Of a DNA stretch of 64,000 nt, positions 9,623 through 53,402 are shown piece after piece; the stretch's first letter is position 1; the number at the start of each line of letters is the position of its first letter. The stretch covers positions 12,635,675 to 12,699,674 of the forward strand of contig NC_087076.1 of the NCBI RefSeq assembly GCF_026151205.1. The letters run 5' to 3'. Position numbers and translations under genes: made by a program. This DNA comes from Bolinopsis microptera. Taxonomy: Eukaryota > Ctenophora > Tentaculata > Lobata > Bolinopsidae. A model generated the notes under the pieces. That model ran no database searches. It was not told the origin of the DNA and was given only the letters and a program-made list of their open reading frames with translations.

Positions 9623-9782
9623 TCTAGATATTATATTTAGATGAAGAGGAAAAGTTGTATTTCCCAACGGAAGGTGAGACTGTAGAACAGTCATCGGCTA
9701 TCGTCATGACCATATTATACTCCTAAAAACGAGCATAAAGTAATTTAACGCTAAAGAACAACATGGGTCAAATGATCAGAAG

Positions 9783-10586
9783 GGGGGGAATGCAACGTCA
9801 ATTAATATCAATTAATGTCAATTAATGTCAATTAATGTCAATTAATGTCAATTAATGTCAATGTCAGTTTTGCAAAATTTTGGAATACTGACATTAATTG
9901 ACACGATATTTTTCGACCAGAGATTATGTAGTTCTACCATATTTTTAGCACTTTAGAACGTTTATATCATCAATTTATTCACTACTATCACATATGGAAA
10001 TGTGAAATGTGAAAAAAATTCAGATCATTAAACAACAAAACTAAAATAATACGGTTTCCCGAAATTTAATTTTCTTAAATGGGCGTGGCCATCCAAGGGC
10101 GTGGTTCTCAACACCATCAGAACTTAAAACACACATAAAACGAAATGCCTTCATGACATTTATATTTGAATAACGAATCTTAAACAGCTAACATTACTCC
10201 TTCATACTAAAAAAGCCGATTTTAGATATTTTACCTGCTTAAGAAACCAATAAAATATGGGCGTGGCCGGTGGGGACCGAAGATGGAAGAGTTGGAAGCT
10301 GAAATTTTTTTTGGTGGTCTTTGAACCTAAGGATCAACAGATAAGAACATACTCATAATTATTCAAGGACATTTTGTTTTTTTGAACCGGTCTAACTTAC
10401 ATAGACGTGAATATCTTGAATATTTATCGAATAATGATAATCTCAAATTTCAAGACATATTAATGTCAATTAATGTCAATTAATGTCAATTAATGTCAAT
10501 TAATGTCAATTAATGTCAATTAATGTCAATGTCAGTTTGGGGTTTTTATGGAATACTGACATTAATTGACGTTGCATTCCCCCCAA
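9783..10586. mobile_element. G-run-ended transposon E1, non-autonomous
   Basis: The left end is a run of G followed by aatgcaacgtcaattaat. The right end is attaattgacgttgcattcc followed by Cs, the exact inverse. CAGAAG flanks both sides (9777-9782 and 10587-10592), with two extra As before the right copy. Each end module contains a (gtcaattaat)n array and a 'ggaatactgacattaattga' segment, so each terminus can also fold on itself. There is no open frame of note inside. The target looks like a once-continuous frame, because the right flank (from 10593) reads as coding-like sequence. Confidence 0.85.
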
Positions 10587-10592
10587 CAGAAG

Positions 10593-11227
10593 AGATTCGC
10601 CTCAGATTGTTAGGAGCCATAAAAAATCCCGAACCAAAGAGCCTGAAAGTTATGGCTACTCTTAGTTATTCCTGTGCTATCCGTGGAGAGAAAATGCCAT
10701 ATTCAATAGTCTTTATTTATTCTTCTTGATCTCTCATAATTTTTTAGTATTCATTTTAACAAATTTTTCTTTTCTGAATTTCAGAATTATTATTTTTCAT
10801 CATTTTTCTTTCATCGTTATTTTCTTTAATACCACTAAGTATTATTATTAGTTACAAAGCAAACTAATTTGATCTTATCAGTCTTTAAATGAATTCACGC
10901 AACATTTAACAATCGATTGCTTAAGGAATAACAGACATAGGATTGGAGGACAGCTGTACCAATTCAACATGTATTCTAACGTCCTCAGTGCTGCTACTTT
11001 AAAGAGTATAGCAACATGATAAACATTATAATTCATTTATTATTATTGTTATTTATAATGTCATAACATATAATTGTGATAAAATGCTACGAATACCTTC
11101 AATATAATGGTAAAATAAGTGATATTGCAAGTTTTAATTAGCTTAATGGTATAATTTAAAGGAATATCACTAAAGTAGGAGTTACCACGAGATCGCCTGT
11201 GTTACCCACTGGTCAGAGAGTGTCAAC
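10593..11227. other. flank of E1, no gene resolved
   Basis: The first ~110 bases read as a short peptide (EIRLRLLGAIKNPEPKSLKV), possibly the continuation of a frame interrupted by E1. The rest is AT-rich with nothing recognised. Confidence 0.3.
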
Positions 11228-11772
11228 ATGAGGGACCTCCGATTTATCAAGGAAGCAAAGGCTCTAGTCCAGAGCCACCTGAAACATGAAACGGGTTTAA
11301 AGGTTGCCTTCCCGGAATCTGCGGGGAAAGGAGGAACTCAGGAACCACGACAAGTGGTAACGTTTGTCGTCCGTTGTTGTACGAGAAATGGATAAGGGAA
11401 ACACTGCTCGACCTCGTTCCAGAGAGGAATAGAAATAAACTCAGAGTTATTATTGTGAGATTGGCTGTTGCACTAAGGGTGATAAGCTCAAAAAGGGAGT
11501 TACGTGAAGAGAAGGTTACTGAGTTGGAGGCGTTTAACAGGGAAACTTATAAACTTATCCTCACCAGTTATCCTCCCCCTCAGGTGAAGATATCACCCTC
11601 GGTTCATAAGCTTCTGGGACATTCGTGGGACCTTGTTGCTCTTAATGACAATTTTGGTTTGGGGACAGTATCAGAGGGTGGTATTGAGGCCTGTTGCAAG
11701 AGCGACTTCTACAAAGCAAACAAACGCAAAGTACTTTTGACAAAAACTGTCCGACACAGGCCGGACAGTTGA
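11228..11772 (+). pseudogene. C-terminal fragment of a RAG1/Transib-like DDE transposase
   Basis: The main frame (from about 11340) reads TTSGNVCRPLLYEKWIRETL, then a helical stretch, then VKISPSVHKLLGHSWDLV and FGLGTVSEGGIEACCK. The order Gly/Asn-rich turn, 'E.y...' helices, '.vHK.L.H....', then 'G..SEg..E..nK' matches the C-terminal part of RAG1/Transib-type transposases. In that family the Glu of the SE(G/E) motif region carries the third acidic catalytic residue. An upstream frame starting at ATG 11228 (FIKEAKALVQSHLKHETGLK, then FPESAGKGG) joins after one missing base near 11335. The end lacks the usual basic '.R...aR.tS' tail, so the copy is frameshifted and truncated. The family call is from motif order only. 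Confidence 0.4.
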
Positions 11773-12248
11773 TCAGCTGTGTAAGGGACCAGTGTTCCTA
11801 TTTCAGTGAGGAAAAAAGTGAGTTCTCCTATTAGATTATTCTATGAAAAACTCAAATAATATTAATAATAATTTTATCACCTTCAATAAAATATTCATGT
11901 ATGGCAGTTTTGACAAATTTTGTTATTCTATATATACTAAGCAGTGTTCGAATCGGTTTATTTGCTGGATACAAAAGGGTTTTGATTGCCCGTTTGAAGG
12001 GATGGAGGAGCAGTAGACAGATGACGAAAAAGAGAAGAGGTTTCGCCATCCAGTATTAAACTATTTGTTATTCATACCAGGAATTTCATTGCAATTTTTA
12101 ATAGAAGTCTTCATTTAAAATGGGATATTATATAAGGTTCAACATTTGCCCAAATGATAAAGTATTTTTAGAAACTAGGCCAGGGGAGACAAAATATCAG
12201 AATATATCTACCAGAAAGCAGATTTGATCTCCAAGAAGTACAGCTAAT
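11773..12248. other. no gene recognised
   Basis: AT-rich; short ORFs only. Confidence 0.4.
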
Positions 12249-12461: not shown

Positions 12462-13890
12462 AGTCCAACTTTAGCTGAAATGATAAAGCCATTAACCTTC
12501 AGATAACTTGAGATCAGTTAACATAAGTACAAATGCAGAACGCCCAGATCAACCTAACTAGTGTGCTTGGTAGTTCTCGAGTCAAAAAAAGGGTAAAATA
12601 AGATGAAAATTGCCTTACACTCATCTTTTTATTCACAGTAAGTATATTGAAAACGCCTTGATGAATAATGCTTTCTTAAAAGTATAATGTTAAGAATTCG
12701 GCTACAGGGCGATTCTGGAATTATCAGAGAAGTATTATATATACAAAGCAAAAAAGTAATTTTTTTCGATGACATCCGAAAAGATGTAACAGGTTAGTTA
12801 ATACATCCTAATTAACATTTCATTAGACGCATAATGGTTGCCTACTTATAACATATTATGCACATATTATTTCACTACTCAGATGTAGCTTGAGATGTAG
12901 ATGTACAGCTCTGTTTTATCTCAAGCTTATCCCATTATTTCAGATCATATCCCTACCCCACACCAACTCAACGCTCACTGTCAGCATCCTACTCGAAATA
13001 TATAATGTAATCAGCATGGTTGATGGCAAAATGGTTTCAATTATGCAAGGAGATGGGGGCAGTCCCAACAGCACACCAATTAACGAAGAACACCAAGACC
13101 AACTGCCCAAATAAACAAGGATTGAACTCGATTAATCAAGGTTGAACCTTATCAATTTAAAACAGGCATAATATTTTAAAAACCATTAAGTATTATATAG
13201 ACAGGAATGAACTAAAATTTTTAAAACACAGCGTTGGGTCACAAAAATATTTAGTTTGGTGGAAATGCTAAAATAGCTTAAAAAGTTAGTTTGTTTATTG
13301 TTTATTGTTTAATTTCAATTAAATTCAGCGAAAGTGTTGAACTAAAAGCGTACTCTGTATTTTTGCTTATCTAGGAATGCTTATTACTTTAGATGAAAGG
13401 TTTTACAACTTTTAAAGAGATCCGAGGGAGGAGAGAGATAAGATTATATTATATTTAAAGATCAGAACTCGAAAAGAGTGCACATCGTTAGTTTACTATG
13501 TTGCGATCGTATAGACAAGACAAGATCGCAAGTAGCCATGTTTGGTGGCAAACTGTACCAGTTTAATAGTTCATAGCTGAGGTCCTGATCCCCGAAAGAG
13601 GATGAACTGTGCTCTGAAGAAAATAATTCATTCGATAAATGACACTTAAAATAAAAATAATAGCATTCAGGTATTCAGTCAATTATTGAATAATTATGGA
13701 ATCTTTCGGAGAAACCAACAACAACGCTAAGTAAAGGGCTAAGAGTAAGAAGGATTATATTCACGTAATACTTGACATATTAATACAATATGGTGTTCCT
13801 GATGTAAACTCCATAAATTTTATTTTTGGGGTCATCTGAAAAACTTAGTCTATGGAGATCCTGTTCCCAAAAGTGTGGAAGAACTGAAAT
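12462..13890. other. no gene confidently recognised
   Basis: The only item of note is a possible exon at about 12940-13114. It follows 'cccattatttcag', reads LPHTNSTLTVSILLEIYNVI and MVDGKMVSIMQGDGGSPN, and ends in TAA. Confidence in it is low. Confidence 0.25.
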
Positions 13891-13894
13891 AAGG

Positions 13895-14184
13895 AGGACT
13901 GATGAGAAGAAGGAGGAGGACTGAGGATGACTGAGTAGGAGGACTGAGGAAGAGGAGGACTGAGCTGAAGAGGACAGAGGAGGACGACTAAAGATGAGGA
14001 GGAAGACTGAGGAAGAGGACTGAGGAAAAGGACTGAGGAGGTGGAGGACTGAGCAGGAGGAGGAAGGAGGAGGAAGCATCTAAATGTTATTTCCATAACA
14101 TTTTATGTCTGTTTTTGTTTGTTTTGTCTGTTTTTGTCCGCCCTACTTTTTGTCTGTTTTGAAAATACCCCCCCCCCCCCCCCC
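13895..14184 (+). repeat. purine-rich GAGGA satellite plus conserved 3' module, copy 1
   Basis: Bases 13895-14080 are an irregular (gaggaggact)-type array. It is followed by 'catctaaatgtt', then 'gtctgtttttgtccgcccta' and 'ttttgaaaatac', then a run of C. The same order occurs at 26080-27955 and 47078-48815. Here the element has no matching left G-run, so it looks 5'-truncated. Confidence 0.8.
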
Positions 14185-14620
14185 TTATCTATATCGCTAT
14201 TGGTGTTAAATTTTCAAAAATACCATTACCATCCGCATCCCACAGGACTTCGGGAAAAACGTAAGAAACATCCTGAAAGGAAGGGAGTTTTCAGAGTTTT
14301 TGTAAGCACACTGAAAGAAGAGAAAGTGTCCGTGAAGATACCAGGCAGAAAGGGATATCCTGGTCTAGAATCAATACCACAAAACTTCCTCTATGATCAA
14401 AACGGAAGGAAACCTTAAATTAAGATTTCTTGCTATTAATTACTTTTGATTTATTGATGGAAAAAGAAGGATAGAAGGAATGGGTGCCAACTAGTGCAGA
14501 TTAATTCCTACTCTCAGCTGTTTATCTGTGTTTTTAAAAGAAACTTACATATATCCAATGACAATATAATCGAAAACGGAGAGAAAGGTTGGCACATCAA
14601 CATATTTTAGACTAACAGTA
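14185..14620. other. short spacer, no gene recognised
   Basis: A frame reading LREKRKKHPERKGVFRVFVS (about 14247-14306) is basic and unassigned. It ends at TAA near 14418. Confidence 0.2.
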
Positions 14621-15009
14621 CGGGGGGGGGGGGGTCAATGACTACCAATGGAGACTTTTGGGGACTAATGGGGACTAAAAATCATGGGGACTAGAGGTCA
14701 ACTCGTTGACGTAATTCACCATTTGCCCCCATAAGTCCCCAGAATTTTTGACAGTTATTTATGGTTTTCAAGTTAGTTAGGTACTCTAACAGCCCTCAAG
14801 TAGCTCCCAAGAAGTCAGGAATGTCCAGTGACCATTTATAAATATTCTAGACTTCAGTCTTGAGAAGTTTATGATCTGGTCTGGAGAAGCCAGATTTTTT
14901 GAAATCTAAATGGGGACTAATGGAGACTTTTGGGGACTAATGGGGACTAAAAATGGGGACTCGGGGTAAAATCGTTGACGTAATTCCCCAAGTCCCCAAA
15001 AGTAGTCAT

Positions 15010-15045
<36 letters not shown>
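14621..15045. mobile_element. G-run-ended transposon E2, non-autonomous
   Basis: The ends are c + 12 Gs + tcaatgactac and gtagtcattg + ~32 Cs + g. The 7-bp duplication AACAGTA flanks both (14614-14620 and 15046-15052). Inside are two inverted half-copies of 'tggggactaatggggactaa' separated by ~150 bp of unique sequence. The 425-bp length and absence of genes are typical of a MITE. It belongs to the same family as 53098-53395. Confidence 0.9.
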
Positions 15046-15052
15046 AACAGTA

Positions 15053-15448
15053 CACATACAGTCGAGATTTTATCAGTATCACATTATAGCATCAAACACC
15101 TGACACCATTAGGTGCCTACAATTTTTTAGAAAACTCTTCCAACAATTCAAAGTGCCGAAAGGAAACACCTGAATATCTTAATTTATTGGTACCATTAGT
15201 GACATACTGACATCAACATTTTATAAACTTTGATATTGATAACAACTCTATTATGAAACGTCCAAATAATTTGACGTCTGTGAATATAATTTGTATCAAT
15301 TGACAATTCAAGACAATGAGTAACTGATAAAATATTTGATACATTAACCATAAAAATGTGATATATTAACCATCATATTCACTCTAGACAAAACCAACCA
15401 TTCTAACCCTGACCGCGACACTAACGACTTTGATTAAACATCAACTTT
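15053..15448 (+). repeat. diverged dispersed repeat, copy 3, and spacer
   Basis: Bases about 15180-15330 resemble 1490-1640 (tttattggtacc, catcaacattttataaactt, 'caatgag'). No gene seen. Confidence 0.45.
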
Positions 15449-16111: not shown

Positions 16112-16117
16112 TCAGTT

Positions 16118-16784
16118 GGGGGGGGGGGCCAACCATATTAAAGTGTATTAAAATGTAGGATTTTTCCCGATTTTGACCCGGGGATATACTTTAATATACT
16201 TTAATATATCCCTATCTCCTTGGAGGCCTACATCAAAAATTGTTGCCCAAAATAAGCTTGAAATGCAATTCTTAATCGATTCCAAAAAGTTCTTGAAAAA
16301 ATATTGAAAACTGATGGAGTTATTTCAATTTTAATGAAGTCATTTTGGCTAGTATTCCGAACCGAGATATTATGTGCAATTTTCCCAATTTTGTTCATGT
16401 AGGTCTTTTTATTTAGTATCCACTATATTCAACTAACACTGAGTTATATCTTTCACATAGAGTTAGTCTCATTAAAAAATATTGAAATTTTATCGAATTT
16501 GGGCAAAAGCGAATTTGGGCAAAAGCGTATGCCCAAATATGGGCATATTTTTTAAGCTCATAGCTCAGCCAATTTTTGACCAATCTGGATGAAAATTCAT
16601 GTACTGGTCCTAAAACAGGCTTATCTTGCGAATCTGAGTGAAAAATATAGTTCATCATGTAAATCTTAACGAAGAATATAAATCTTCTAATTGTAGGTAT
16701 ATTAAAGTATATTAAAATGTAGGATTTTTTCCGATTTTTACCCGGGGATATACTTTAATATACTTTAATATGGTTGGCCCCCCC
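16118..16784. mobile_element. nested G-run-ended element E3b inside the left end of E3
   Basis: The ends are Gs + ccaaccatattaaag and its inverse 'atggttgg' + Cs. Each end contains an internal near-palindrome: 'tatattaaaatgtaggattt', then 'cccggggata', then 'tactttaatatactttaata'. It inserted into the G-run of E3, so its left G-run merges with that of the host element and its duplication cannot be read. Confidence 0.75.
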
Positions 16785-18331
16785 ACAGTGTGCCCGCGAG
16801 CCCGATTTTCTGCAGAAAGTCAGTATTTTTCTTCAACCAGCCTATTTTCAATTTAAAACTACCCTATCCAACCTAAAATTGCATGAGAAATCGTTTAAAG
16901 GGGTTTTCAAGATGATTAGAAGGATTTTTGACCTCATATATTGATTTAACCTGATTTTTGGTGTAAAATTACATTTTTTTGCCGTTTTTTGCCATATTTT
17001 TGAACAAATTACAAAAATAAGTGACAAATTCACTTTGATGAGCATCCATAATTTACGCTATCTGTAAGTATAGGACATTTAGAGTAATCTCAGAAAAATT
17101 TACAGTGTGATATTGTGGCATGATTTTTTTATGGGCCATCAAAGGTTTAAGATTAGACAGAAATTTTGTGAATTTTAGGACTTTTTGATTCCATTTTTAG
17201 ACCATTTTATCACTTATATCAATTATAAACTACTTCTTTGTGTTTTAAATGGAAAGAGGTTATCAAGAGCTTTCATTTGATACCTCCATACATGGCTTTT
17301 AATCAAAATTCGAATTTTCGTGGACAAAAACAATGTTATTTTGAGCTAAATTGAGTTACGCGCTTACAAAATAAGGTAATTTAGCCCCAAATTGCTGATA
17401 TTTTCTTTTTTAAAGCCTTTAAATCACCTCAACAAGTGTTTCCGGACCTTACAATGACCAAAAACACTTAAAAAGCAATCTTTATTCTCTCAAACAGTTC
17501 AGAAATCATTATTTTTGCAATTTAAGGTCTAAAAATGGTAGATTTAGCCCTTTTTTAACTTTAAAGGACCCTAATTTCAATAAAATTACCAAAATTTTAG
17601 GGCAGTAGCTGAAAATAGTTCCCAAATAGTCATTCTTAGGCATAACCATACCTAAAGGTTACTTTAAAAAACATGTGGAGACTCTTAAACTGCCCCCATG
17701 ATTAGTTAAGGGTAAAATAGTGATATCCCCATATTTTGGCAGTCAAATTTTTTGAGGGAGGCTGGGGGTACTTATGGCCATGGGAAGGTGTCAGATGACA
17801 AATTTGGGTTCCCCATTATGTTTTTTCTGTCAATGTAAGGTATCAGGCATAACAAATAACTTAGTTAATAGTTCCCAAAACTGGGATCTGGAAGTTGATT
17901 CTGCACTTTGGTACCATGCGAACGAAATTTTGTCCTTCAAAAATGATGAAAACATCGAATTTTGCCTGCAAAAATCGAAATTTCGTATTTTTAACCCAAT
18001 TTTTATTGGATCTGGCCCCTAACTCCATATAATAATGATGAAAAACAATGTTTATGGTTTTAGACATGTTTAGAGATTATTATTCTAGTTTATATGCGAC
18101 CAATTCATCCATTAATTCTTATCCTATTGAATTTTATTCATAAATTTCATACCAATTTGGTGTATATGATTCAAGATATCTCAAGAACCAAAAATGATAG
18201 CCCCTTAATTCTTTTTTTGTTAGAAAATTCAGATTATTTCTGATCAGATCAGGCTAAACTTATCTGGAAAGCAAATATCACCCTAAATACTTTTTGCAGC
18301 CTCTGGGCACACTGTGCCCCCCCCCCCCCCC
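16118..18331. mobile_element. G-run-ended transposon E3 (outer), interrupted by E3b
   Basis: TCAGTT flanks both ends (16112-16117 and 18332-18337). The right end is gggcacactgtg + ~17 Cs. The matching left subterminal cacagtgtgccc lies at 16784-16795, displaced from its G-run by the nested element E3b. The interior (16800-18300) is AT-rich with only short ORFs and nothing like a transposase. Confidence 0.85.
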
Positions 18332-18337
18332 TCAGTT

Positions 18338-18483
18338 TGGCTACTGATGAATCGTAAAGAAAAGACATCACAGACACAAAAACGTCAAGCAGTTATGTTA
18401 ATACGTACTCAAATGTTCTGGGCACTGAATCTGGACAATAATGGCCCACACTCATCGTGATGTGGCCATATTTTTTCATTAAG
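18338..18483. other. spacer
   Basis: Ends in 'catattttttcattaag', a possible 3' splice site. Confidence 0.3.
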
Positions 18484-25402: not shown

Positions 25403-26079
25403 ATTCACTGGGGGGGGGTCCAACCCGATCATTTCCGATCATTCCGATCCCGATTTTGGCCTCATCAACCCTCATATCGGAAAAATCGGGAAAATTTAAA
25501 TCTTCCCTCTGAGGTTTCTAGGCGATATAGGTAGCTATTTCTGTACTTAAATATGACAAGAAATCGATTGGTGGTGGTCCCAGAACCCCAAAATGGTATC
25601 TTGTTCCAAACAAGAATCGTTTCGTCCGAAAAACAACACAATGTCGTATCAACTCTTGTTTGACAGAAACATCCACCCCGGTCCACAATTGAAAGAGGTA
25701 CGGTTGGTAATAACAATCGTAACAAATAGCGAACGCTTTAGTAACTTTTGATTTGAATTGTCTCCACAATTTGTAACAGGCTATCTGCAGAAATGGGTAG
25801 CACGGTTAATGACTATGGTCCTTTCTCAAACTTCCAATCCTCAGTTAGATACAAAGAATAGTCTACACAATTTTCAATAACATTAAAAGGGATGAAAATC
25901 ACTTTATTTATCAAAATCTTTATTTATCATGTAACAACTTTTCCATAGTACTGGAGAGTAAAACTCTGTTAAACAAACAAATTCTCGGGCACATTTTGAG
26001 TCAGTAACAGTAACATGTCAATATGTTACAGACTCAAATGCGTTTAAAAACATTTTAGTAACAATAAATTGTGTAAACT

Positions 26080-27872
26080 GATGAGGAGGAGGAGGAGGAC
26101 TGAGGAGAAGGAGGACTGGGGGAGGACTGAGGAGCAGGAGGGTGACTTAGGAGTAGGAGGAGAAGGAGGAGAAGGAGGAAAAGGATGAGAGGGAGGAGGA
26201 GGACTGAGGAGGAGGAGGAGGACTTAGGAGTAGGAGGAGAAGAAGGAGAAGGAGGACTGGCGAGGAGGAGGACTGACGAGGAGGAGAAGGACTGCGGAGG
26301 AGGAGGAGGACTGAGGAGAAGGAGGAGGAGGAGGACTGACGAGTAGGAGGAAGAGGAGGACTGAGGAGGAACAAGATGAGGACTGAAGAGGATGAGGAGG
26401 ATGAGAAGGAGGACTGGGGGAGGACTGAGGAAGAGGAGGACTTGGGGAGGAGGATGAGGACGATGAGACTGATGAGGACGAGGAGGACTGAGGAGGAAGA
26501 CTGAGGAGGATGAGGACGAGGACTAAGGACGAGGACTAGGAGGATGAGGACAAGGGCTAATGAAGAGGAGGAGGACGACTGAGGAGGAGGACTGATTAGG
26601 AGGAGAAGGAAGAGGAAAAGGAGGAGGAGGATGAGGAGGAGAACTGAGGAGGAGGAGGAGGATGAGGAGGATGAGGACTGAGGAGGAATACTGAAGAGGA
26701 CGAGGACTAAGGACGAGGAGGAGGCGGAGGACGACTGAGGAGGAGGAATGATTAGGGGGAGAAGAAAGAGGAGAAGGAGGAGGAGGAGTAGGAGGAGGAG
26801 GAGAAGAAGGAGGATTAGGACTGGGGGAGGACTGAGGAGGAGGATAAGGAGGAGGAGGACTAAGGACGAGGATGAGGACGAGGACGATTATGAGGAGGAC
26901 AGAGGATGAGGACTGATGAGGAGGAGGAGGATGAGAAGGAGGACTGGGGGAGGACTGAGGAAGAGGAGGACTTGGGGAGGAGGATGAGGACGATGAGACT
27001 GATGAGGACGAGGAGGACTGAGGAGGAAGACTGAGGAGGATGAGGACGAGGACTAAGGACGAGGACTAGGAGGATGAGGACAAGGGCTAATGAAGAGGAG
27101 GAGGACGACTGAGGAGGAGGACTGATTAGGAGGAGAAGGAAGAGGAAAAGGAGGAGGAGGATGAGGAGGAGAACTGAGGAGGAGGAGGAGGATGAGGAGG
27201 ATGAGGACTGAGGAGGAATACTGAAGAGGACGAGGACTAAGGACGAGGAGGAGGCGGAGGACGACTGAGGAGGAGGAATGATTAGGGGGAGAAGAAAGAG
27301 GAGAAGGAGGAGGAGGAGTAGGAGGAGGAGGAGAAGAAGGAGGATTAGGACTGGGGGAGGACTGAGGAGGAGGATAAGGAGGAGGAGGACTAAGGACGAG
27401 GATGAGGACGAGGACGATTATGAGGAGGACAGAGGATGAGGACTGATGAGGAGGAGAAGGAGGAGGAGGATGAGGAGGAGGACTGGGGAGGACTCAGGAG
27501 GAAGAGGGTGATGACTGAGGAGGAGGATGACGATTGAGGAGGAGGACTCAGGAGGTGGACTCAGGAGGTGGAGGAGGATGAGAAGGACTCAGGAGGAGGA
27601 GGACGACTATGAGGAGGACTAAGGAGAACTGATGGGGAGGAGAAGGAGGATCAGGAGGAGAAATGAGGATGAGGATGAGGAGGAGAAGGAGAAGGAGAAG
27701 GAGAAGGAGGAGGACTGGGAGTAGGACTGAGGAGGAGAAGGGGATTGAGGAGGAGGGTGAGGAGGACTGAGGAGAAGGACGAGGACGAGGAGTCAGGAAG
27801 AGGACTGAAGAGGACTGAGGAGGAGAAGGACTCAGGAGGAGGAAGACTTAGGAGGAGGAGGAGGAGGACATC
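26080..27872 (+). repeat. 1.8-kb purine-rich GAGGA/GGACT satellite
   Basis: One strand is almost entirely purines with scattered 'ggact' and 'gatgag'. A 530-bp block (about 26391-26920) is repeated in tandem nearly without change at 26921-27455. The complementary strand gives Ser/Leu/Pro-rich ORFs that are artefacts. Such mirror-like purine tracts can form triplex DNA. Confidence 0.95.
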
Positions 27873-27955
27873 TAAATGTTTTGTCTGTTTTTGTCCGCCC
27901 TACTTTTTGTCCGTTTTGAAAATACAGGGTACCGAACGGACACAAAACATGATCC
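27866..27955 (+). repeat. conserved module after satellite (copy 2)
   Basis: 'acatctaaatgttttgtctg', then 'tttttgtccgccctactttt' and 'ggtaccgaacggacacaaaa', ends 'catgatccccc'. It is shared with 48698-48815 and, in part, 14085-14170. Confidence 0.85.
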
Positions 27956-28450
27956 CCCAGCCAAGCATGTGGTACGATACAAATGTACTTGACTATACAT
28001 TTAAGGTGCAGTGTACTAGTGATATTATGGTATGTTTAAAGACCGGACCACAAAATATAACCCTAGTGTTGTACTAATACATAATAACAAGTAACAGGGA
28101 TAAAATTAATGAGCAGAAACAATCGATCTCACGTCAAGAGGCCAAAGCACTCGGGTCTGGGAGTACATGACAACTCCAACTAGTAGTGAGCATACTAGCC
28201 CCTGCAGTGGAAAAACACATAAAACATACTATTGGAATGTCCAATTAGTTCGTTTTCTCATAACAATATAGCATATGTAGGGGTTTTTTATCACTTCCTC
28301 ACTTCTGAGAGGTTTTAGAGATCGATTCTCTAAAATTTCTCAATTTTCCGATTTTTCCGATTTTTCCGATTCCGATTTTGGCCTCATCAACCCTCATATC
28401 GGACATCGGGTTGGACCCCCCCCCCCCCCCCCCCCCCCCCCCCATTCACT

Positions 28451-37237: not shown

Positions 37238-40200
37238 ATGGAATGCATAATTACGCCAACTAACCATGTCGGAAGTACACCTGCGCCAACAGTTGAACAC
37301 GTGCCTCGGGCGGAGACGCTGAATGAATCAGAGATCGACGACCCAAACTTAGTTGTGGATGATAATACCTGTCCACCCCCCAGACCCAGATGTATAACTT
37401 GTAACGGAGTCTTTAGACCACAATACCGACCCATTACCTGCAGTGACGAATCATGTGTGGTCCTAGCACACAAACAACAGCTGTGTAGCGGACTTAACAG
37501 AGAGGAGCAACGGGCTGGGAAGACTTGGAGGTGCCGAAAACACGGTGGGGAGTGTCCACAACCCCAGAGCATCAACCCCACACCTCAGCCAGCAGATGGC
37601 CCGTATTTAATCTGCAAGAAGAGATTCAGTGCCAACATATCACCACTCATATGCAGACTCTGTTCAGGAGGAGCCCACGCTTCATGCTCTGGAATTGACA
37701 GGTGGAATGTCACAAAACTGCGGAGAAACGGAAAGTGGAAATGCCAAGTATGTATCGGTGAAATTGACCCTACAGTCAACTCCCAGACCGAGGACCTCCC
37801 TAAAGGCAGATGTGATAAGTGTCCCCGAGCAATATGTAAGGGTGTTAGGAGAGCTAAATGCTGCACCTGCTCACAGCTATTCCACCGTGGCTGCACTGGG
37901 CTAACTAAAGATTCCATGGACCCGGTGCTAAACTCTAACAACTGGTCATGCCAAAAGTGCTGCTCTAAGGGTTCCCAACCATCCTCCCTGCCTACCCCTG
38001 AAACCCCTAACGAAAATCACGAGCCTAATCACTGTGGACCAACAGGCAGTCTCAGGATCCTCCAGTGGAATGCAGATGGTCTTAACCCCAAAATTGCTGA
38101 ACTTAGAGACTTTGTTGGCTCCCACAAAATCGACGTAGCTATGATTCAAGAGACCAAGCTCACGACAAACAAAGCCACACCAGATCTGAACGGATACACA
38201 GCAATCAGAGCAGACAGGGCTGAAGCTGAATTCCCTGGTGGCGGCCTTATCATATACGTGAAGCACAACATAGCTTTCAGAAAAATAGGGCAAGCGAAGA
38301 ATGGTCTAGTAGAAGCCCAATCCGTTAGTATCCAGCAGAGAAGGGGAAAATGGTTAGACCTAACCAACATCTACGCTCCCCCAGGAAGAGATGACTTCAA
38401 CATCATGTGGATCCCCGTTTCTGATGTCTGCTTGATTGCTGGAGACTTTAATGGTCACTCTAAACTCTGGGACCGCAAACAACCCAACGACAAGAGAGGT
38501 GACGATATAGTGGACTACACCCTCACTAACAACCTATTCCTCTGTAATGACGGCTCACCCACGAGAATTAACAGAGGAACAGGGGGCATGAGCTCACCAG
38601 ACATCACAATAGCATCTACCACCCTTGCTAACAAGATCTCATGGGCCACCCTTAACGATCTTGGCTCGGATCACATGCCTATTGTTATAGAGGTGAAAAA
38701 CGAACACACCAAACGACACCCCCAGAGTAAGAAACAGAGGAGAAGAAGATGGCGCAATGCTAAAGCAGACTGGACTAGCTTTGCTAACCAGATTGACAGA
38801 AAACTTGCTGAAGAAGTGACCACAGACGCTCCCGAAAATTTCAGCAAAAAGGTAGCTAACTTCAACAAGATCTTAGTACAAGCTGGCTACAACCATGTCG
38901 GGAAAACATCCCCTAAAAACAAAGATAGCTGGATGAATAGTGATATAAGAGCTAAGGCAAAGAATCGTAACCTCCTACGTCGAGAAGTGGGGCAGAAACG
39001 GAAAGAGTGGCTTGATGCATGTGCCGAGGTTCAACAACTCATGGATGAGGCAAAGCAGAAAGCTTGGGAAGACTATTTATCGGAGGCAGAGTTCAATGTA
39101 GACCCTAGTGAAATGTGGAGAGTTATTAGAAACTTAAGTGGTACTCCAGACTCCATTGCTCCTAACGAGGTACTGATAGTAAACGGGAAGGCTATCTCAT
39201 CCAACCCAAATAAAGCTGATGCATTTGCTAGACACTATGCAAAAGTTAGTAGACTCAACTTTAGCAAAAGTGAGAGACATAGAAACACCAGTCTCAAGAA
39301 GAGAATGACTAAGCTGCAGAATGGGAAGGAGGAATGCTGCAAGAAGTTCAGTATGCAGGAAATGGAAGCATCCCTAAAAAAGACCAAGACGAAAGGGGCT
39401 CCTGGAAGTGATGACATCCCGCCCAGCTTCCTAAAGAATATCGGGCCTAAAGCAAAAGAATTCCTGCTAGACATCCTCAATGAATCCTTCAGCTCGGGTA
39501 AGGTACCAAGGATATGGAGACGTAGACATGCTGTGATAATCCCCATCATCAAAGCAGGTAAACCAAGCAGCAAACTAGCAAGCTACAGACCAATCAGCCT
39601 AACATCATGTGTGGTCAAGCTACTAGAAAGAATGCTCTGTGACCGGCTGTACTACCTAGCCGAAACAAATGGATGGATTTGTCGAACACAGGCAGGATTC
39701 AGAAGGAGCCAAAGTACTGAGGACCAGGTGATCCGCATATCCCAAGGTATAAGCGACGGATTCCAGAAAAAACCTGCTCAGCGGACAGTACTAGCGATGT
39801 TGGACTATTCTAAGGCGTATGACAGGGTATGGCAGCAGGAACTTTTCCACACCCTGCTTGATACAGGTGTTCCTGCCCAAATTATACGCTGGTTCAGAGC
39901 ATTCCTCAATGAAAGAACAGCCCAAGTCCTCTACAACGGAGCATTCAGCAAGCGAGTCTTTATGAGACAGGGTCTCCCCCAGGGTGCAGTGTCATCCCCT
40001 CTGCTTTTCCTCTTCTATATAAACAGCATAAGTGAAGTGATCCCAGAAGGAGTAGAGCTAGCTCTGTTTGCAGATGATGCCTCCCTGTGGGCATCAGACA
40101 TCGATCTCAACAAAGCCAACAGACAAGTTCAGCTAGCTCTTGATAAAGTACAGGAATGGAGCAACAGGAAAAAGATGATGCTCAATGTAGATAAAAGTGA

Positions 40201-42960: not shown

Positions 42961-43178
42961 AGTCAAATTTGGGGGGGGGGTGGGTTCCAACCCCATTCTG
43001 CCTTATCCCAATTTTGCCCTATTTGGCTGCCCGAATGAGGCAGAATGAGGCAAATTTCGGCAATTTTTGGCAATTTTACAAGATCCAACTCAGGGAAAAC
43101 AGGCCCCAGTAAACCAAGGAAAAGCGTGTGGATTTTGCGAATTTCAATTCTGATCGGATTGAGCCTTACCCGTTTCAG
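42961..43178. other. solo G-run end (unpaired)
   Basis: 'aaattt' + 10 Gs + tgggttccaaccccattctg resembles the left end of the G-run elements. An inner partial inverse (gaatgaggcagaatgaggca) follows, but no matching C-run end with a duplication was found. Confidence 0.4.
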
Positions 43179-43610
43179 AAGTTCAGACAGTGCAATCTAA
43201 GAGGAAATGCTCGGTAGTCTCCAAGAGGAGATTAGGTCTTCATCGGGTGATGAGAGGGGTGCAGAAGCGGAAGGGAATCCGATTGTGGAGGCTGAGGTCA
43301 GCTGTGAGATGGAAGGTGACCCCCAGATCAACGAGGAGAATACAGATGTTGAGATGGAAGCTCACAGTAAGTTTCTAATTAACAACCGCACTAAATCCAT
43401 GAATGAATTAATTAATTAGGTGATATGATATGATTAATTATATAAAAATCAACTCGAAAATTCTAGATTGATTATTGGATCTGACATTATTAAGTTGAAT
43501 GGCACCTAGCACTCTAAGTTCTAACAGTGCCTGACCTGTTTCAGACAGTGCAATAGAAGACATGCTTGGAAACCTGCAAGAGGAAAATCAGCTTTTCATC
43601 GGGTTATTTA
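43179..43610 (+). pseudogene. duplicated exon pair of an acidic protein, first copy broken
   Basis: Exon copy 1 (43179-43366) follows 'cccgtttcag' and ends at a strong donor (CTCACA|gtaagt). It encodes EEMLGSLQEEIRSSSGDERG, then an acidic stretch EAEVSCEMEGDPQINEENTD, but has TAA right after DSAI. Copy 2 (43545-~43610) follows 'cctgtttcag' and reads DSAIEDMLGNLQEENQLFIG without that stop, then loses its frame. The shared start shows a local duplication. No family recognised. Confidence 0.4.
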
Positions 43611-44114
43611 AATTGTCATATTTTTATAGAGCAATTTAATGGTAAATATTTAAGTCGTCTATATAAGAATCTATAGATGATGCTGTAAAGATTCAGCAAA
43701 TCAGATCATGAGACTGTTAGTCGTACACTCTATTAAGGAGATACAGATATAGAAATTAAATATATTAGTGGAAACTTCTATGAATAATTATTGGGACAAA
43801 AAAACGGTAAACAATCAAATTGTCGTCAATTTATTTAAGCACATAAAGTGATGAACATATCAATCATCTCAAACACATTGAAACTAGTACCTAAGATGGT
43901 TAAAAACGAGTGAAACGGGAAGAAGGGCCACCACGGCGACCTGTCCCTAACGCTGTTCCCTAAAATTAATATAATCTTCCGAAAGCGGACTAAGGATTAT
44001 TATCCTAAGTAGGAGCTCAAGACTAAAGAAATCGCTGCTACAAAATACCAGGCCCGCCTCTAGTCTGCTCTAGAGAAGAAGGATAAATCTCTAGCTGGAA
44101 ACGGAGCGGGTATT

Positions 44115-44525
44115 ATGGATGCTGGAGACACGTCAACTGGTGGAGTCCGGATTGGGCCAGGAACTACGATCGAGAAAACCCCAGCCAATAATGACGACTG
44201 CAAAGAGTTGGACTTTGTTGTAGTGATACATGGTCCCCTTCTTTACATTTGCCGTGTGAAAGAGGTAGACAGTGAGGTTTCAGTAGCATACATGACGAAA
44301 CTAAGTGAGAATCGGTATTATTGGAAAGAGGAAGCTGGGTTTGAGCAGGTTTGCTGGGAGTTCCTGGAGAGAATTGTGTGCAAGGTGGAAGTACCATCCA
44401 TTATAAATTCAAGTAATGGTCTTGAATATGAATTTACACAAGCAGATATAGATAAAGCAAAAAAAGCTTTTAAAGACTGCAAAGAAGCAGAAAGAAAACT
44501 CAGAGCTAGATCTATGAGAAAATAG
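44115..44525 (+). CDS. 136-codon ORF with Tudor/SH3-like domain
   Basis: The frame starts at ATG 44115, and an open lead-in (KDKSLAGNGAGI) extends it slightly upstream. The core is DFVVVIHGPLLYICRVKEVD, then VSVAYMTKLSENRYYWKEEA and FLERIVCKVEVPSII, followed by a basic helical tail (ADIDKAKKAFKDCKEAERKL). The pattern 'Dwv.V.y.g..ypG.V......v.V.vM.k.g...W.wp...D...y..e.iv.ki..P' is a small beta-barrel seen at the C terminus of some metazoan transposon-associated proteins. The position of the GEV motif is less conserved here. It may be the 3' part of the gene at 43179-43610. The protein is probably not active alone. Confidence 0.4.
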   Translation: MDAGDTSTGGVRIGPGTTIEKTPANNDDCKELDFVVVIHGPLLYICRVKEVDSEVSVAYMTKLSENRYYWKEEAGFEQVCWEFLERIVCKVEVPSIINSSNGLEYEFTQADIDKAKKAFKDCKEAERKLRARSMRK

Positions 44526-44706
44526 TATTATAACTTTACTTACCTACTTACAGATACTAATTACTTAATCTTAATGTTTAATTATTATCCAAATCTTGCG
44601 TTGTTACTGTACTTTTCGTATTCTACTTTACGAAACTAAATACATTTTCACTTAACTATAAAATTACAAACGGCTCCTCCAATGGCTCCTCCAATGAAGT
44701 AGAATG

Positions 44707-44738
<32 letters not shown>

Positions 44739-45167: not shown

Positions 45168-48100
45168 CAGGTCATGTTTTACAGCGAAGGAGATGTGTAG
45201 AAGTGATGTTCCCTCTGCTTGACTCCGCTCACTTTCAACATCCCGTTTCATTTCTTCTTGGCTGCAGAATGTGTGTTAGCCACGTATAGTCATAGAACGA
45301 TACAGACTGTTGATTTGATGCTATGTACATATCATTACTAATTATGACTCTCCAAATTTATTTTACTAGTACTTCAGCAGAGGTAAGGTCAACCTACCAC
45401 AACAAGTTAAGTTTTCAGCTCAGAAACACTCAATAAAAAACAATAAATATAATTTCAATCCTTAGAAAGCTAAAGGAGAAGCTTAACTCACTCATTTTGT
45501 TCCTTCTCCTCCATATCATTGAAGTTACTTGTTAATTCAAACACAACTTTCTTGTGATGACCCTGACATGAGCCATTTAACTTTGATCAAACAAATATAT
45601 ACATTTGTTTGATTAAGTTTGTAAAATAAAATTGCTGTTTAAAACTTAATTTTTGAGTATTTTAATTAAAGGACCAGTTAACTGAAAAAAAAGTTATCCT
45701 CATATTTTGAATGATTGTGACAAATAGCAAACTAAGCAACGAGTCGAAATTCCTAAATCTCTAACTGCTCTCTAACGCGTGTAAATAGCGTTTGTATTAT
45801 TTTGGCGATGACGTCATAAAGTCCCTCTTGCGCGCAGAGTAGCTCGTGAGACTGTATTTTACAGGTAAAAAATGGACATAATACAATCTTTTCCCCCGAA
45901 TAACTCGAAAAGTAAGTAATTTAGGGTACATGTTGCTTCATAAGTTGTATATAAACATGGCCATTCTGCACAATTTGCACACATTCAAAAACCTTTAGGG
46001 CCTTCATAGCCCAATTAACCAGATACCCATAGTTTTGCATGATTTCTGGAACCGAAAATCAGTTTTTCGCCAATAACTGAAAAAGTAAGCACTTTAAGGC
46101 ATATGTTTGTTCGTAAGTCATATATTAATATGCTAATTGCGGTTCTTTTGCATCCTGTCTGAAGACTCCATCACGATCATATCGAAAATGGGCTTAGCAC
46201 CACGCCCAAAATGGTTTTTGGCGAATTTATCGAAAAGTAAGGATTTTAGGCCGTGTGTTGCTCAATAACTCCTATATAAACATGCATATGCGGCTTCGTT
46301 CAAGCCTATTTTGAAGTCTCTACGACCTTCAGAAGCAAGGGGTCGGTTACGTTATTGGGTCAATATGGGCGTGGCCCTCCTGGGTTTTCTCCACGGTCAA
46401 AAAATGTCTCCAAACGAAAATCGTTTAATCATAACTTCGGGAAGGTCTGTGCAAAGTTTCGTGAGTATTAGAAAATTTGCAGGTTCATTTCCATAAATGT
46501 CCATAAATGACTGGACTACACAACTTTAGAGTTAACTTTAGAGAAACTCATAAGTCATTTATCTCAAATTAAGCTGTTAGTGTCCACGATCAACCTCTGG
46601 CGACAATGTTTTACGTGAAATGTAAAAATCAGGAGTAATATAAAAAAGGTATTTTTAGATTAAAGTGCTAGCTCATAGTTTTAGAATTGTATAGATTAAC
46701 GGGGGGGGTGTCATGTCCGTCTATGTCCGCCTATGTCCTGTCCTTTTTGGATTCTATGAGACAACGGACGTGTTTTTTGGGACATTGGCGGACACGGACG
46801 GACATTGGCGGACTCGGACGGACATTGGCGGACTCGGACGGACATTGGCGGACTCGGACGGACATAGGCGGACCCGGACGGACATAGGCGGACTCGGACG
46901 GACATTGGTGGACATTAGCGGACATTGGTGGACATTAGCGGACAAACATTTTGAGAATTTTTCGCAACTTGTATTATAATCTTGTACAAAACAAACGACT
47001 TATTAATCACACTAAAGCTATTAATAGCTTTAACTTATTATATCAAATTATATAGGGACCCAGGAAAAGGCCCCAGGAGGAGGAGGAGGAGGACTGGGGA
47101 GGAGGAGGACTGTTGAGGACTGATGAGGAGGACTGAGGACGAGGAGGAGGAGTAGGAGGAGGACTGAGGAGGGGAGGAGGAAGAGAACTGGGAAGGATCA
47201 GGAAGACCCAGGAGGAGGACCCAGGAGGAGGACCCAGGAGGACCCAGGAGGAGGACCCAGGAGGACCCAGGAGGATGACTCAGGAGGAGGAGGACTCAGG
47301 AGGAGGACTGAGGAGGACTGAGAAGGAGCTAGGAGGACTGAAGAGTACTGAGGAGGATGTCTGAGGAGGATGGCTGAGGAGGATGACTGAGGAGGATGAC
47401 TGAGGAGGATGACTGAGAGGGAGGAGGAGGATCAGGAAGACCCAGGAGGAGGAGGAGGACCCAGAAGGAGGACCTAGGAGGAGGAGGAGGAGAACTGAGG
47501 AGGATGACTGAGGAGGAGGAGGACTCAGGAGGAGGACTCAGGAGGACTGAGAATGAGGAGGATGGCTGAGGAGGATGACTGAGAGGGAGGAGGAGGAGGA
47601 AGAGGAGGAAGAGGACTGAGGAGGAGGAGGAGAAGGACTGAGGAGGAGAAGGAGGACCCAGGAGGAGGAGGACCCAGGAGGAGGAGGACCCAGGAGGAGG
47701 ACCCAGGAAAAAGCCCCAAGAGGAGGAGGAGGACTGGGGAGGAGGAGGACTGTTGAGGACTGATGAGGAGAACTGAGGACGAGGAGGAGGAGTAGGAGGA
47801 GGACTGAGGAGGGGAGGAGGAAGAGGACTGGGGAGGATCAGGAAGACCCAGGAGGAGGACCCAGGAGGAGGAGGAGGACTGAGGAGGACTGAGGAGGAGG
47901 ACTGACGATGACTGAGAAGGAGGAGGACTGAGGAGTACTGAGGAGGATGGCTGAGGAGGATGGCTGAGGAGGATGACTGAGGAGTGAGGAGGATGACTGA
48001 GAGGGAGGAGGAGGAGGACTCAGGAGGAGGACTCAGGAGGAAGAGGACTCAGGAGGAGGACTTAGGAGAAATGATAAGGAGGACTGAGGAGAACTGAGGA

Positions 48101-51100
48101 GGAGGAGGAGGAGGAGGAGGACTGAATAGGAGGAGGAGAAGGAGGGGGACTGGGAGAGGACTGAGGAGTAGGAGGACTGATGAGAAGGAGGAGGAGGAGG
48201 ACTGAGGACCGAGGAGGAAGAGGAGGAGGATGAAGAGGAGGAGGAGGACCCAGGAGGAGGAGGACTGAGGAGGATGACTGAGGAGGATGACTGAGAGGGA
48301 AGAGGAGGAGGAGGAGGAGGAGGAGGACTGAGAAGGAGGAGGACTGAGAAGGAGGAGGAGGAGGAGGACTGAATAGGAGGAGGAGGAGGGGGACTGGGGA
48401 GGACTGAGGAGGAGGAAGGAGGACTGAAGAGAAGGATGAGGAGGAGGACTGAGGAGGACTGAGAACTGAGAAGGAAGAGGAGGAGGATCAAGAGGAGGAG
48501 AAGGACCCAGGAGGAGGACCCAGGAGGAGGACTCAGGAGGAGGAGGAGGACTGGGGAGGAGGAAGACTGTTGAGGACTGATGAGGAGGACTGAGGACGAG
48601 GAGGAGGAGTAGGAGGAGGACTGAGGAGGGAAGGAGGAAGAGGACTGAGGAAGATCAGGAAGACCCAGGAGGAGGAGGAGGAAGAGTAGGAGAAGGAAGC
48701 ATCTAAATGTTATTTCCATTTTTGTCCGTTTTTGTCCATTTTTGTCCGTTTTTGTCCGCTCTATTTTTTGTCCGTTTTGAAAATATAGGGTACCGAACGG
48801 ACAAAAAACATGATCCCCCTATAACAGCAAACATTGAACATTTTATTTAGCAATTTAGGTGTCCATTAATGTCCGCTAATGTCCGTCTATGTCCGCCTAT
48901 GTCCGCCTATGTCCGCCTATGTCCTGTCCTTTTTGGATTCTATGAGACAAGCGGACATAGACGGACGTGACACCCCCCCCCATTAACGTTGGTCATTTAG
49001 CCATCTAACAATCGATCGTGCCGTAATATATGGCCAGAGAATAATAGGGTTTTGGAAATTCTATAGTTGTTCAGTGGGTCGATCGACTGAACACGTTTGC
49101 ACTTGGTATTTAAACTTGCCAGTAGTTTATTTATGTTATGCACCGATGATAATGCAATTAGGATAACAACTAGGTAAGCCGGAAGTCTAATTCAAAACAC
49201 ACCTCACACCGTACACACCTCCAATCAGTAATTTTACTATTTGGTAGACCGGGTATTTTGGCTTGAATTCTGTTCCCACGGCACTGTTCTGATAGAAGCT
49301 ACTTCTACTAATGGTCCCAGAGGAACGGCCGTAAAGTAGCCAGACTTCTTGTCTCCTGTACTGGCAGACACTTGCAGATTAAAGTTAGAAATTTCGCTAT
49401 GCTATAAATATAATTGCTCTAGGAATTGAACAAACTCCTACTTATCTGTATCCTTTCTAAATTCGTTAGAGTTTCATGGACTGGGGAAAAATAATCGGTA
49501 CAGTCTCCCTGCTTGTGTAATTAAGCAATGAAAACAATCCAAAATTATCACATATAAGTTGTAATAGCAGAAACTTTCTAACCGTACATTCACCCGCCAC
49601 TGTTCAAGAACCTATATCAATCACTGTTTAAAATCATGACGTGAGCACTGTACATCCAATCAGCTATTCCTTTAGTTAGGATGATAGCCAAAACTATAAG
49701 GATTTTGGAGAACTAGGGTAATAGTCATAATTCTAAAATTTGAGTGAGTTACACGTGTTTTATTGACGATGATAAACATTTGTAATGTAAATTACGCTAT
49801 GCAAGCGCGCACTGAGGGACTTTATGACGTCACGAGGCCACAGCTTATTATTGCAATAACAATCGTTACACGTACGCTAGAGAGTTGGTTCTTTCGGCGA
49901 TACGATTCTTTACCAGTTTGTCACAGCTGATTTAAATCTTAGCCAAATTGGAGACTACAAATCAGTTAACTGGTCCTTTAAGAAGGCATCTGTATAGTAC
50001 ATACCCTAAGAAAACTCATTCAAAAGTTACCTTAGCAGCTGATAGAAGTAATAAGTGAACAATCTGTGGAACAACATCAAACTTCACAAGAGACAGGCTG
50101 GAACAAATCTTCTCGATGAAAAATGCCATCTCACTTTGTGAAACTGTTATGTCCTGAAACATCTGTCCAATGTGTAGGATGTTGTTTTGGGGCCACCTGA
50201 AATTATTAGAATTAGAATTAGAATTAAATTTACACAGCAATGCAATACAATAAGGATAAAAATAATTTAAAGAAGCTTCAAGATGCTGTGCAAGACATTC
50301 AAGTCAGTCAAAAACTGTTAGAAGAATACCCTTCTAAGGACATAGAATCAAAACATATAGTAGGTAATAAATTATAAGTTAATGAATATGGTACAGTGAG
50401 ATTTAACATTAAACTTTGGGCAAGGAGGTAATCATTAAAGTAGTACGAAAATCACATAGATACCCACTTTGACATTTGTTGTCAGAAATATGTACATTTA
50501 TATACAGAGAAGTATAGACCTCAGATTGAAAAATGGCATCTGCATCAGTCAGACAAGGAAATTAATACCATATAATGTTAAACAGAGTTTAACTGTCTGC
50601 ATTATATTAAAGTTTATAGAACCATATTTCCATTTCTGCACTGGGAAAATTTGTGATATAAGCTGTATGTACCCAGGTACCTGACACTGCAGATTTTGTT
50701 GATGAGATGAGATCTGTATTCTGGACCAGTAAACTCCTCACCATCACAAGATACCGTTTGTCGACAAGCCTCAAGACAATTCAAAACTTGTCCCAATACT
50801 TCAAAACTCCTGAATGTAAAACTAGAAATTTGATACAAATTAAAGATCTAATTTGCGATGTTGTAATATTATATATTATTAATCTAATCTTGTTAACAAT
50901 TTTCCAGTGAGCTACCTACTTTCCGCATGAGTTGTTGGATTTCATGATAACATCCAAAAAGTGTTGAGAAATTTCTTGCAGCGAGCCAACTGGAGCAGAA
51001 GAGACAAAAGTGTTGAGAGCTGTTATCAGTTCGGTTGTAACCTGGCAAACAGCCAATCAGATAACTTTTAGAATTAGAAATATTTTGGTTCCACTTGTTT

Positions 51101-51760: not shown

Positions 51761-52677
51761 TACACCTTATTAAATATATCATTCAAAGTTAAATAATTCG
51801 AATCGTCCTTCATTAAATTTAGAAGCTGATCTGAAGGTCTAAAAAAACATAAAATAAAACACTATGAAGAAGTATAATAAAATATTCAAACAATATACAC
51901 ATAATATAGCAATGGCCAATTGGCTGACTATTATAAGGTCATGGCCTGAACAAACAATTTCTTTAAATAGTCAAGTGATGCTAAAGCATAGCACAAATGT
52001 GTAATAAGTTAATAGATTAAAAACTGATTCATGTGATGCATTACGCAGAGCACAGATAAAAATACTGATTCAATGATTAAAATTAAAGCTGTGAGTGTCA
52101 ATAAATTACTGTGTCATAAAAAAGGAACGATGTACACGTGATCTGAGATACCAATATCTCAATATCAAAAGGATAGTGTCTAGAAACATTCATAGTCCAT
52201 GGTGGCAGGTATCAAGTTAAACGAAGTTACACTGACTGGCAATGTATACGATTGCCGTCTCCCTCTCTCACCCCTGACCGCTATCAGGGTGCTCCTGAGG
52301 ATTGAGAATCTAATCCTGAAGTATAAATGATGCTATGAAGTATAAATGATGCTATTTTTTCAGATGAACTTTAATTTTATGCATTCTAGGTGATTGGTAT
52401 TTTTAAAGATTGGATAGAGTTCATCATGTTTTTACAAAAGAAAAATAGTCAAACAATTTATACAACAGAGCAAGGAATAAGCATGCCTGAAAACTTGCAC
52501 ACACCGGAACGCTAGTTCAGTTGAGTTTTTAGAGACAAGGCTCACATTTGAGGCTCACATTTAATTAGGATCAGAAGAAAATTGTTAGCAGACATTAGGA
52601 GTTCTGTTTATAGTTGTTACTATGGGTAGCAGTCTTGTTGAGTATAATGGCGCAGGAGGGTCAACCTGAAAAGAACA
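51761..52677. repeat. upstream flank of FANCI with dispersed repeat
   Basis: Bases about 52495-52640 are the inverse of 35545-35690. I see no convincing core promoter upstream of the FANCI start. Confidence 0.6.
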
Positions 52678-52890
52678 TTGCTTGACCCTCCTGCCCCACC
52701 GCATGGATCAGGAGGTTCATTTCAGAAACAGTGCTTGACCCTCCTGCCCCACCACATGGATCAGGAGGTTCATTTCAGAAAAAACAGTGCTTGACCCTCC
52801 TGCCCCACCACATGGATTACGGGGGTCACCCACAAAAACAGTGCTTGACCCTCCTGCCCCACCACATGGATTACGGGGGTCACCCACAAG
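52678..52890 (+). repeat. ~54-bp tandem repeat, 4 copies
   Basis: Unit 'tgcttgaccctcctgcccca', then 'ccacatggatcaggaggttc'. The last two copies share 'gattacgggggtcacccaca' instead. ORFs on both strands through it come from the repeat. Confidence 0.95.
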
Positions 52891-53097
52891 ACCATGTGCG
52901 CTGCACTTATTTCTACATCGCGCGCGATACGTGTGTGCGTGATTACATGAAATATTACCGCGCCCTACGCCAAGTAGACGAAAAGCGTGGTCGAAGAGCG
53001 AGAGTCGGTACAATAAATAAAACGAGAGTTGGTACATTTAACTGGCATTTTTTAACCGTGGTACAATCAGAATTGAATACAGCCGACACAGGATGAG

Positions 53098-53395
53098 GGG
53101 GGGGGGGGGGGGCAATGACTACTGATGGAGACTTTTGAGCACCAATGGGGACGAAAATCATAGGGACTGAAGGTCAAATCGCTGGTGAAATTTTCCATTT
53201 GTCCCCATAAGTACCCAAAGTTTTGGCGAGTTTTATGTAGTTTTGATATTATCTTTTATTAAATGACTTCTAAAGGAGACTTTTGGGTACCAATGGGGGC
53301 TAAAAATCTTGGAGACTTGAGGTTAAATTGCTGGCGAAATTCTGCACTTGTCCCCAAAGTACCCAAAGTCATTGGCTCCCCCCCCCCCCTCCCCC
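53098..53395. mobile_element. G-run-ended transposon E6 (same family as E2)
   Basis: The left end is ~15 Gs + caatgactactgatggagac. The right end is 'aaagtcattggctc' + Cs. Inner halves match E2 (cttttg, 'ccaatggggac', 'gggact', 'ccccataagtacccaaag'). The flanks GGATGAG and GGGTGAG (53091-53097 and 53396-53402) agree at 6 of 7 bases. Confidence 0.8.
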
Positions 53396-53402
53396 GGGTG
53401 AG

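Follow-up and report, generated by a model that had tools for sequence, protein, structure and literature searches.

What are the six stretches that begin with a run of G and end with a run of C in a 64,000-nucleotide segment of the Bolinopsis microptera genome (C5:12635675-12699674, contig NC_087076.1; hereafter the window), and what moves them? In this study, the six stretches, designated E1 to E6, were compared with the whole genome (264,652,675 bases in 232 contigs). They are multi-copy, non-autonomous cut-and-paste DNA transposons, and no recognisable transposase coding sequence was found in any of the six. Very probably, they belong to several families within a single clan of cut-and-paste elements with G-run ends, mobilised by relatives that encode a diverged DDE-type transposase. 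A sequence-only reading of the window had proposed inverted-repeat DNA transposons with a common homopolymer end and subterminal sequences that differ between families. Both points held, and the G-run start and C-run end were confirmed by reading the sequence of all six.

E1 lies at 9783..10584 and extends from G6 to C6, with the terminal inverted repeat (TIR) GGGGGGAATGCAACGTCAATTAATRTCA. The target-site duplication (TSD) of the E1 family is 8 bp; in the window copy its two copies, ATCAGAAG (9775-9782) and AACAGAAG (10585-10592), are identical at 7 of 8 positions. E2 (14622..15045) extends from G13 to C33 plus one G, and this single G separates the C-run from the right copy of the 8-bp TSD AACAGTAC (14614-14621 and 15046-15053). 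E4 (25410..28443; G9 to C28) has the TIR GGGGTCCAACCCGAT, an array of the AGGAGGACTG type and, in the window copy, the 7-bp TSD ATTCACT (25403-25409 and 28444-28450). E5 (46701..48981; G8 to C9; TIR GGGGTGTCATGTCCGTC) is flanked by the 6-bp TSD ATTAAC (46695-46700 and 48982-48987). Arrays of the AGGAGGACTG type recur in E4 (26080-27870) and E5 (47070-48700), with a match of ~73% between the two, as well as beside transposase exons and elsewhere (13890-14080 in the window; loci L079, L081 and L109 in the genome).

The coordinates originally assigned to E1, E2, E4 and E5 were right within a few bases; the extent assigned to E3 was wrong. E3 is a composite: its own unit is 16118..16784 (G11 to C7), and a second inserted element sits in the E3 C-run (about 16784-18316, listed as 16785..18316; inverted ends CACAGTGTGCCC and GGGCACACTGTG, read from the sequence). 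The left copy of the 6-bp TSD TCAGTT is found at 16112-16117; the C-run is split by the second element, hence the right copy lies at 18332-18337. The second element, whose first C is common with the C-run, is not a G-run element, and TSD copies of its own are not visible inside the C-run. Units of ~650-710 bp were present in 5 of the 9 E3 family copies fetched first and in all 20 fetched later.

E6 (53097..53395; G16 to C12TC5) is a diverged relative of E2, with TSD copies GGATGAGG and GGGTGAGG matching at 7 of 8 positions. The kinship of the two, already suspected from the window, was supported by 82% identity over 136 bp. E6 is carried inside a larger dispersed repeat (~53 kb of the window; loci L041-L048), as other loci show this E6 end next to an identical left flank. 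At C2, C3 and C4, E6 ends in inverted orientation were observed 14-21 kb apart. Such pairs were considered as giant elements and rejected; E6 is a passenger, with the same flank at each locus read.

The end pattern of each element was searched against the whole genome, with the reversed pattern as the control; for families with more than 100 matches, the locations used are those of the first 100 listed. With 2 mismatches allowed, forward and reverse matches numbered 211 + 217 for E1, 397 + 410 for E5, 91 + 70 for E2/E6 and 84 + 91 for the E1-like family, which overlaps E1; with 3 mismatches allowed, 33 + 34 were obtained for E4 and 256 + 286 for E3. All controls gave 0. Genome-wide, the five window families thus have from 67 to 807 matches each. 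Interiors of E1 copies were 98-100% identical to the window copy (40 scored of 355 candidates), and from this identity the spread of E1 in the genome looks recent. In a chance check, the window was found to contain 14 G-runs and 14 C-runs of at least 6; among pairs within 8 kb, a flanking repeat of at least 6 was seen for E2, E3, E4 and E5 only. E1 scored 5, and E6 escaped the check because of mismatches in its flanking repeat. Some long runs, moreover, have no matching partner (14168, 42971, 44709 and 59440); therefore, a run alone is no proof of an element.

The flanking repeats had been described as 6-7 bp long and as exact in five of the elements. The lengths stated for E3, E4 and E5 held; those of E1 and E2 are 8 bp, and two classes, of 6 and 8 bp, describe the lengths better. 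An exact 8-bp duplication was present at 25 of 28 E1 loci; the exceptions were the window copy (L001), L012, which reads 7 bp, and L016, in which 8 bp fits only if the C-run grew to 12. Four of six fetched E2 copies, those with both ends, gave TSDs of 8, 8, 8 and 6 bp. Among 29 E3 copies, the longest exact flank match measured 6 in 20, 5 in 4 and 7 in 3; two copies had none. A match of at least 6 was thus found in 23 of the 29, whereas pairing the flanks of different copies gave such a match in 9 of 812 cases, always of 6 and never longer. The E5 TSD was 6 bp in L068, L011 and the window copy, and right ends were absent from the three E4 stretches fetched. Three features of Class II (TIR) transposons, namely multiple copies, inverted termini and TSDs of defined length, were thus observed.

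Seven loci with long-spaced E1 end pairs (1.5-4.3 kb) were examined as candidate autonomous copies and rejected, being E1 copies split by other sequence, for example a Copia-like sequence in L009, E5 in L011, and open reading frames (ORFs) resembling reverse transcriptase in L012 and L013. At L011, where E5 is inserted in an E1 copy, removal of E5 plus one 6-bp repeat restored the sequence of other E1 copies. All six other E1 copies tried matched with 1-3 substitutions and no indel, and removing 5, 7 or 8 bp instead required indels. The repeat at this E5 insertion is thus a true duplication when compared with the empty site.

The search for a transposase started from L073, an E1-like element holding an ORF of 239 amino acids (aa). 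Using this ORF, tblastn gave 142 genome matches, including ORFs of 521-560 aa at 38-41% identity. The small ORF was rejected as the transposase itself, matching only the transposase tail, yet it led to the real one. Further lineages were obtained by searches with a 520-aa ORF and the 766-aa ORF of L078, and 15 transposase loci with mutually homologous ORFs (L074-L088) were read. At 8 of the 15, a G-run end and a C-run end enclose the transposase gene and are themselves flanked by a duplication, 8 bp in five and 6 bp in three, an arrangement likewise expected of Class II (TIR) elements. The 8-bp loci, each with both run-bearing ends, are L074 (TTTAAGGT), L075 (TTCGCGAA), L076 (TACAGAAG), L077 (CTTTCAAA) and L080 (TACTGCGC); the ORFs of L074-L077 are flanked by GGGGGTAATGCAACG or GGGGGTGATGCAACG ends, and their duplications were read from the flanks. 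The 6-bp loci are L082 (TTATTT; G32/C14), L083+L109 (AACGTT; G8/C12; C3:11553861-11565981, 12,121 bp) and L086+L113 (TGTATA; G14/C13).

A check for autonomous members among the window families was positive for E5, yielded a partial ORF for E1 and was not achieved for E2, E3 and E4. As judged from sequence, E5 is related to L083+L109, a transposase-bearing element, and has lost internal sequence: the left 167 bp match at 90%, the last 113 bp at 96% (right end in L109) and the array at 80%. The ORFs of L083+L109 (415, 281 and 237 aa, minus strand) cover the zinc-finger-like, first-D, DGD, DxxH and NEQ parts of the protein. E1 has GGGGG(T)AATGCAACG in common with L074 and L077; E2, E3 and E4 are tied to the transposase elements by the kind of end only. 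L073 (290-1006) and L069-L072 are E1-like non-autonomous elements, whose ORF, at most 239 aa long, matches the C-terminal tail of the transposase only. The truncated product of this tail ORF could act as a repressor, by analogy to KP, a repressor of P elements.

Across the lineages, the transposases have in common the motifs (I/V)D(A/S)T, DGD, QDxxHxxKK(x)RN, SDxNEQxFAxxR and AHxRG, and motif reading further indicated a zinc-finger-like N-terminus, a helical insertion and an acidic-then-basic tail. Taken together, the motifs point to a DDE transposase of the DxxH group. For every transposase scanned, all Pfam families stayed below the cut-off, and the weak matches up to E 10 were senseless (Fer4_18, c-SKI_SMAD_bind, DUF4687 and DUF4902). 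In PDB, neither the 766-aa protein nor a profile built from seven rows had a match up to E 10, and another PDB search gave one senseless match at E 1.7. Two tblastn queries found no relatives in viral contigs, by a method that reaches close relatives only. In a small tree that included partial rows, the 6-bp lineages did not form one clade; the L086 family grouped with the 8-bp L080 and with L078 (81/88), and L082 grouped with L079 and L084 (99/97).

Several observations weigh against mobilisation of the window elements by these relatives as one clan. A complete pair of ends is missing at 7 of the 15 transposase loci: L078 has a right end with C9 and a left inverted end (L110:3584) preceded by GG, with no TSD; L085, L087 and L088 have one run-bearing end each, with the TIR of a sister copy; and no end was resolved at L079, L081 and L084. 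A complete E1 transposase was not found, and all four E1-type ORFs fetched (521, 560, 465 and 521 aa) lack the first D and DGD, which suggests that the copies bearing them are probably not autonomous. Among near-identical E1-type ORFs, the ratio of nonsynonymous to synonymous differences (pN/pS) was 0.57-1.45 and no purifying selection was visible. The catalytic roles assigned to residues are putative, being read from motifs only. The 7-bp TSD of E4 was measured once, and runs of the E1 type are not always short, with C13 in L016 and ~G19 in the E1-like L070.

The terminal runs behave differently in different families. At nearly every one of the 28 E1 loci, the end run is G5-7. In the 29 E3 copies, G-runs were 8-30 (median 10) and C-runs 8-34 (median 11), and the two lengths were uncorrelated (Spearman -0.23, p 0.22, n = 29). 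Every E3 run was at least 8, with a mode of 9-10; this floor could be a minimum for transposition, a length reset at each jump, or the outcome of upward-biased slippage from a founding run of 9-10. Among copies that a shared flank assigns to one E6 insertion, the runs were G22, 17, 16, 14 and 12, with C24, 13 and 16 on the opposite arm and G16 in the window; therefore, the run changes after insertion. Slippage, one of the two origins offered for the run in the sequence-only reading, accordingly has a counterpart in the slippage-like length change after insertion among these copies. Runs at the 6-bp transposase loci were 8-32, and the five 8-bp transposase loci had G5-7. Exceptions are E2, with long runs and an 8-bp TSD, and L085, which belongs to the L080 family and has C24, so the TSD class is tied to run length as a tendency and not as a rule.

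The other origin that had been offered, addition of Gs at insertion, either non-templated or derived from repair, would leave the run outside the element and would fit the wide spread of lengths between copies (8-34 in E3). It is very improbable: G5-7 is kept at nearly all 28 E1-type loci and in L074-L077, copies of a single E6 insertion differ in length within the same flank, and E3 runs never fall below their floor. Sequencing or assembly error of homopolymers was also considered as the main source of the run lengths. Long G/C runs are error-prone in reads, and the exact lengths of the long runs here are uncertain; however, error cannot create TIRs, TSDs or linkage to a transposase, and run length varies in E3 yet hardly at all in E1, making this explanation improbable as well. 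As to known superfamilies, MULE, Merlin and Dada had been named as possible relatives, and these did not stand; it is highly unlikely that the G-run elements are any of them or KDZ/Zisupton. In TSD length there is agreement, with 8 bp in Merlin and in Zisupton, which also has TIRs, and 6-7 bp in Dada (PMC10045372, PMC12730594 and PMC3706591). Merlin is plentiful here: 58 matches were obtained, open frames occur (L031 and L037), and it resembles the G-run elements in its terminal G and its tandem subterminal repeats. However, the one Merlin family whose ends could be placed, at 2 of the 12 loci scanned, starts with GGCAGT instead of a G-run and has 8-bp TSDs and tandem TGGTCCATGGACCAC subterminal repeats; Merlin was rejected as the mover. 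Above the cut-off, the G-run transposases matched neither the IS1595-type DDE domain of Merlin (PF12762) nor the Pfam MULE, hAT and KDZ (PF18758) domains; a genome search for KDZ also found nothing, but its controls gave no match either, hence it is uninformative. Dada is similar in TSD length and in its DxxH motif, but it is described as lacking TIRs and inserting in small-RNA genes (PMC3706591), whereas the G-run elements have TIRs and scattered TSD sequences.

It is quite conceivable, though short of an even chance, that the elements belong, as ordinary members, to a known superfamily with a long TSD, most likely P/THAP9 or hAT, and are unusual only in their G-run terminus. The 8-bp TSD described for P (PMC3706591) is found in E1, L074-L077 and L080, and a different length in E3, E5, L082, L083 and L086. 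The same paper describes the DxxH motif for hAT, P, Kolobok and MuDR, and PMC12730594 describes hAT families, the group that includes hAT6 and hAT7, with TSDs of 5, 6, 7 and 8 bp, a precedent for two classes. The zinc-finger-like N-terminus and a predicted helical insertion before the last acidic residue would also suit P/THAP9. The motif QDxxHxxKKxRN presumably resembles P-type motifs. Against these likenesses, the ends of P and hAT are of the CA/TA type and thus differ from G-run ends; the 6-bp class is unlike P/THAP9, and neither Pfam, over its cut-off, nor PDB revealed sequence similarity to P/THAP9.

Under the reading favoured here, namely one clan with G-run ends, mobility would be supplied by the relatives encoding the diverged DDE-type transposase. 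This protein would bind the tandem subterminal repeats specific to each family and cut at or in the G-run; catalysis, the cutting position and the mover of E2, E3 and E4 are what we infer. The target would be joined with an 8-bp stagger in E1, E2, L074-L077 and L080, and with a 6-bp stagger in E3, E5, L082, L083 and L086. After insertion, the terminal run would evolve as a microsatellite, in which short runs (5-7) change little and longer ones grow.

Other sequences in the window were also noted. A stretch at 42971..44738 (G10 + TGGGTTCCAACCCC to C30) is a doubtful further candidate, with a weak terminal match and no TSD seen. C-runs for which no G-run partner was found lie at 14168-14184, following the border of an E5-like array, at 44709-44738 and at 59440-59467. 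An open frame of 1652 aa at 36932-41890, with endonuclease, reverse transcriptase and RNase H domains, is apparently an intact long interspersed nuclear element (LINE). On the minus strand, an ORF at 56105-56992 with a FLYWCH zinc finger and sequence that looks MULE-like by eye is probably a Mutator-like remnant. This ORF was considered as a mover and rejected, the C-run at 59440 having no G-run partner found.

A constant terminal sequence and a constant TSD length are the usual marks of a transposon superfamily. In the present case, a single transposase clan has a homopolymer outer end, two TSD classes and well over a thousand ends in the genome. A literature search found no paper whose title or abstract start concerned homopolymer-ended transposons; Repbase lay outside that search. 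We tentatively suggest, at well short of even likelihood, that these elements form an undescribed superfamily, defined by the G-run terminus and its own DDE transposase. Changes of stagger between 8 and 6 bp would have occurred on more than one occasion, with the 6-bp lineages tending to longer runs; any run above a minimum would be accepted, or the run would be reset to ~8-10 Gs at each move, and the outermost part of the element would be a microsatellite evolving between jumps. The suggestion is held at this level because hAT families with several TSD lengths have already been described (PMC12730594). If confirmed, the clan would represent a transposase lineage overlooked by Pfam-based annotation and a source of long G/C runs in such genomes, and it would provide a natural system for testing how a transposase locates its cut site within a homopolymer.

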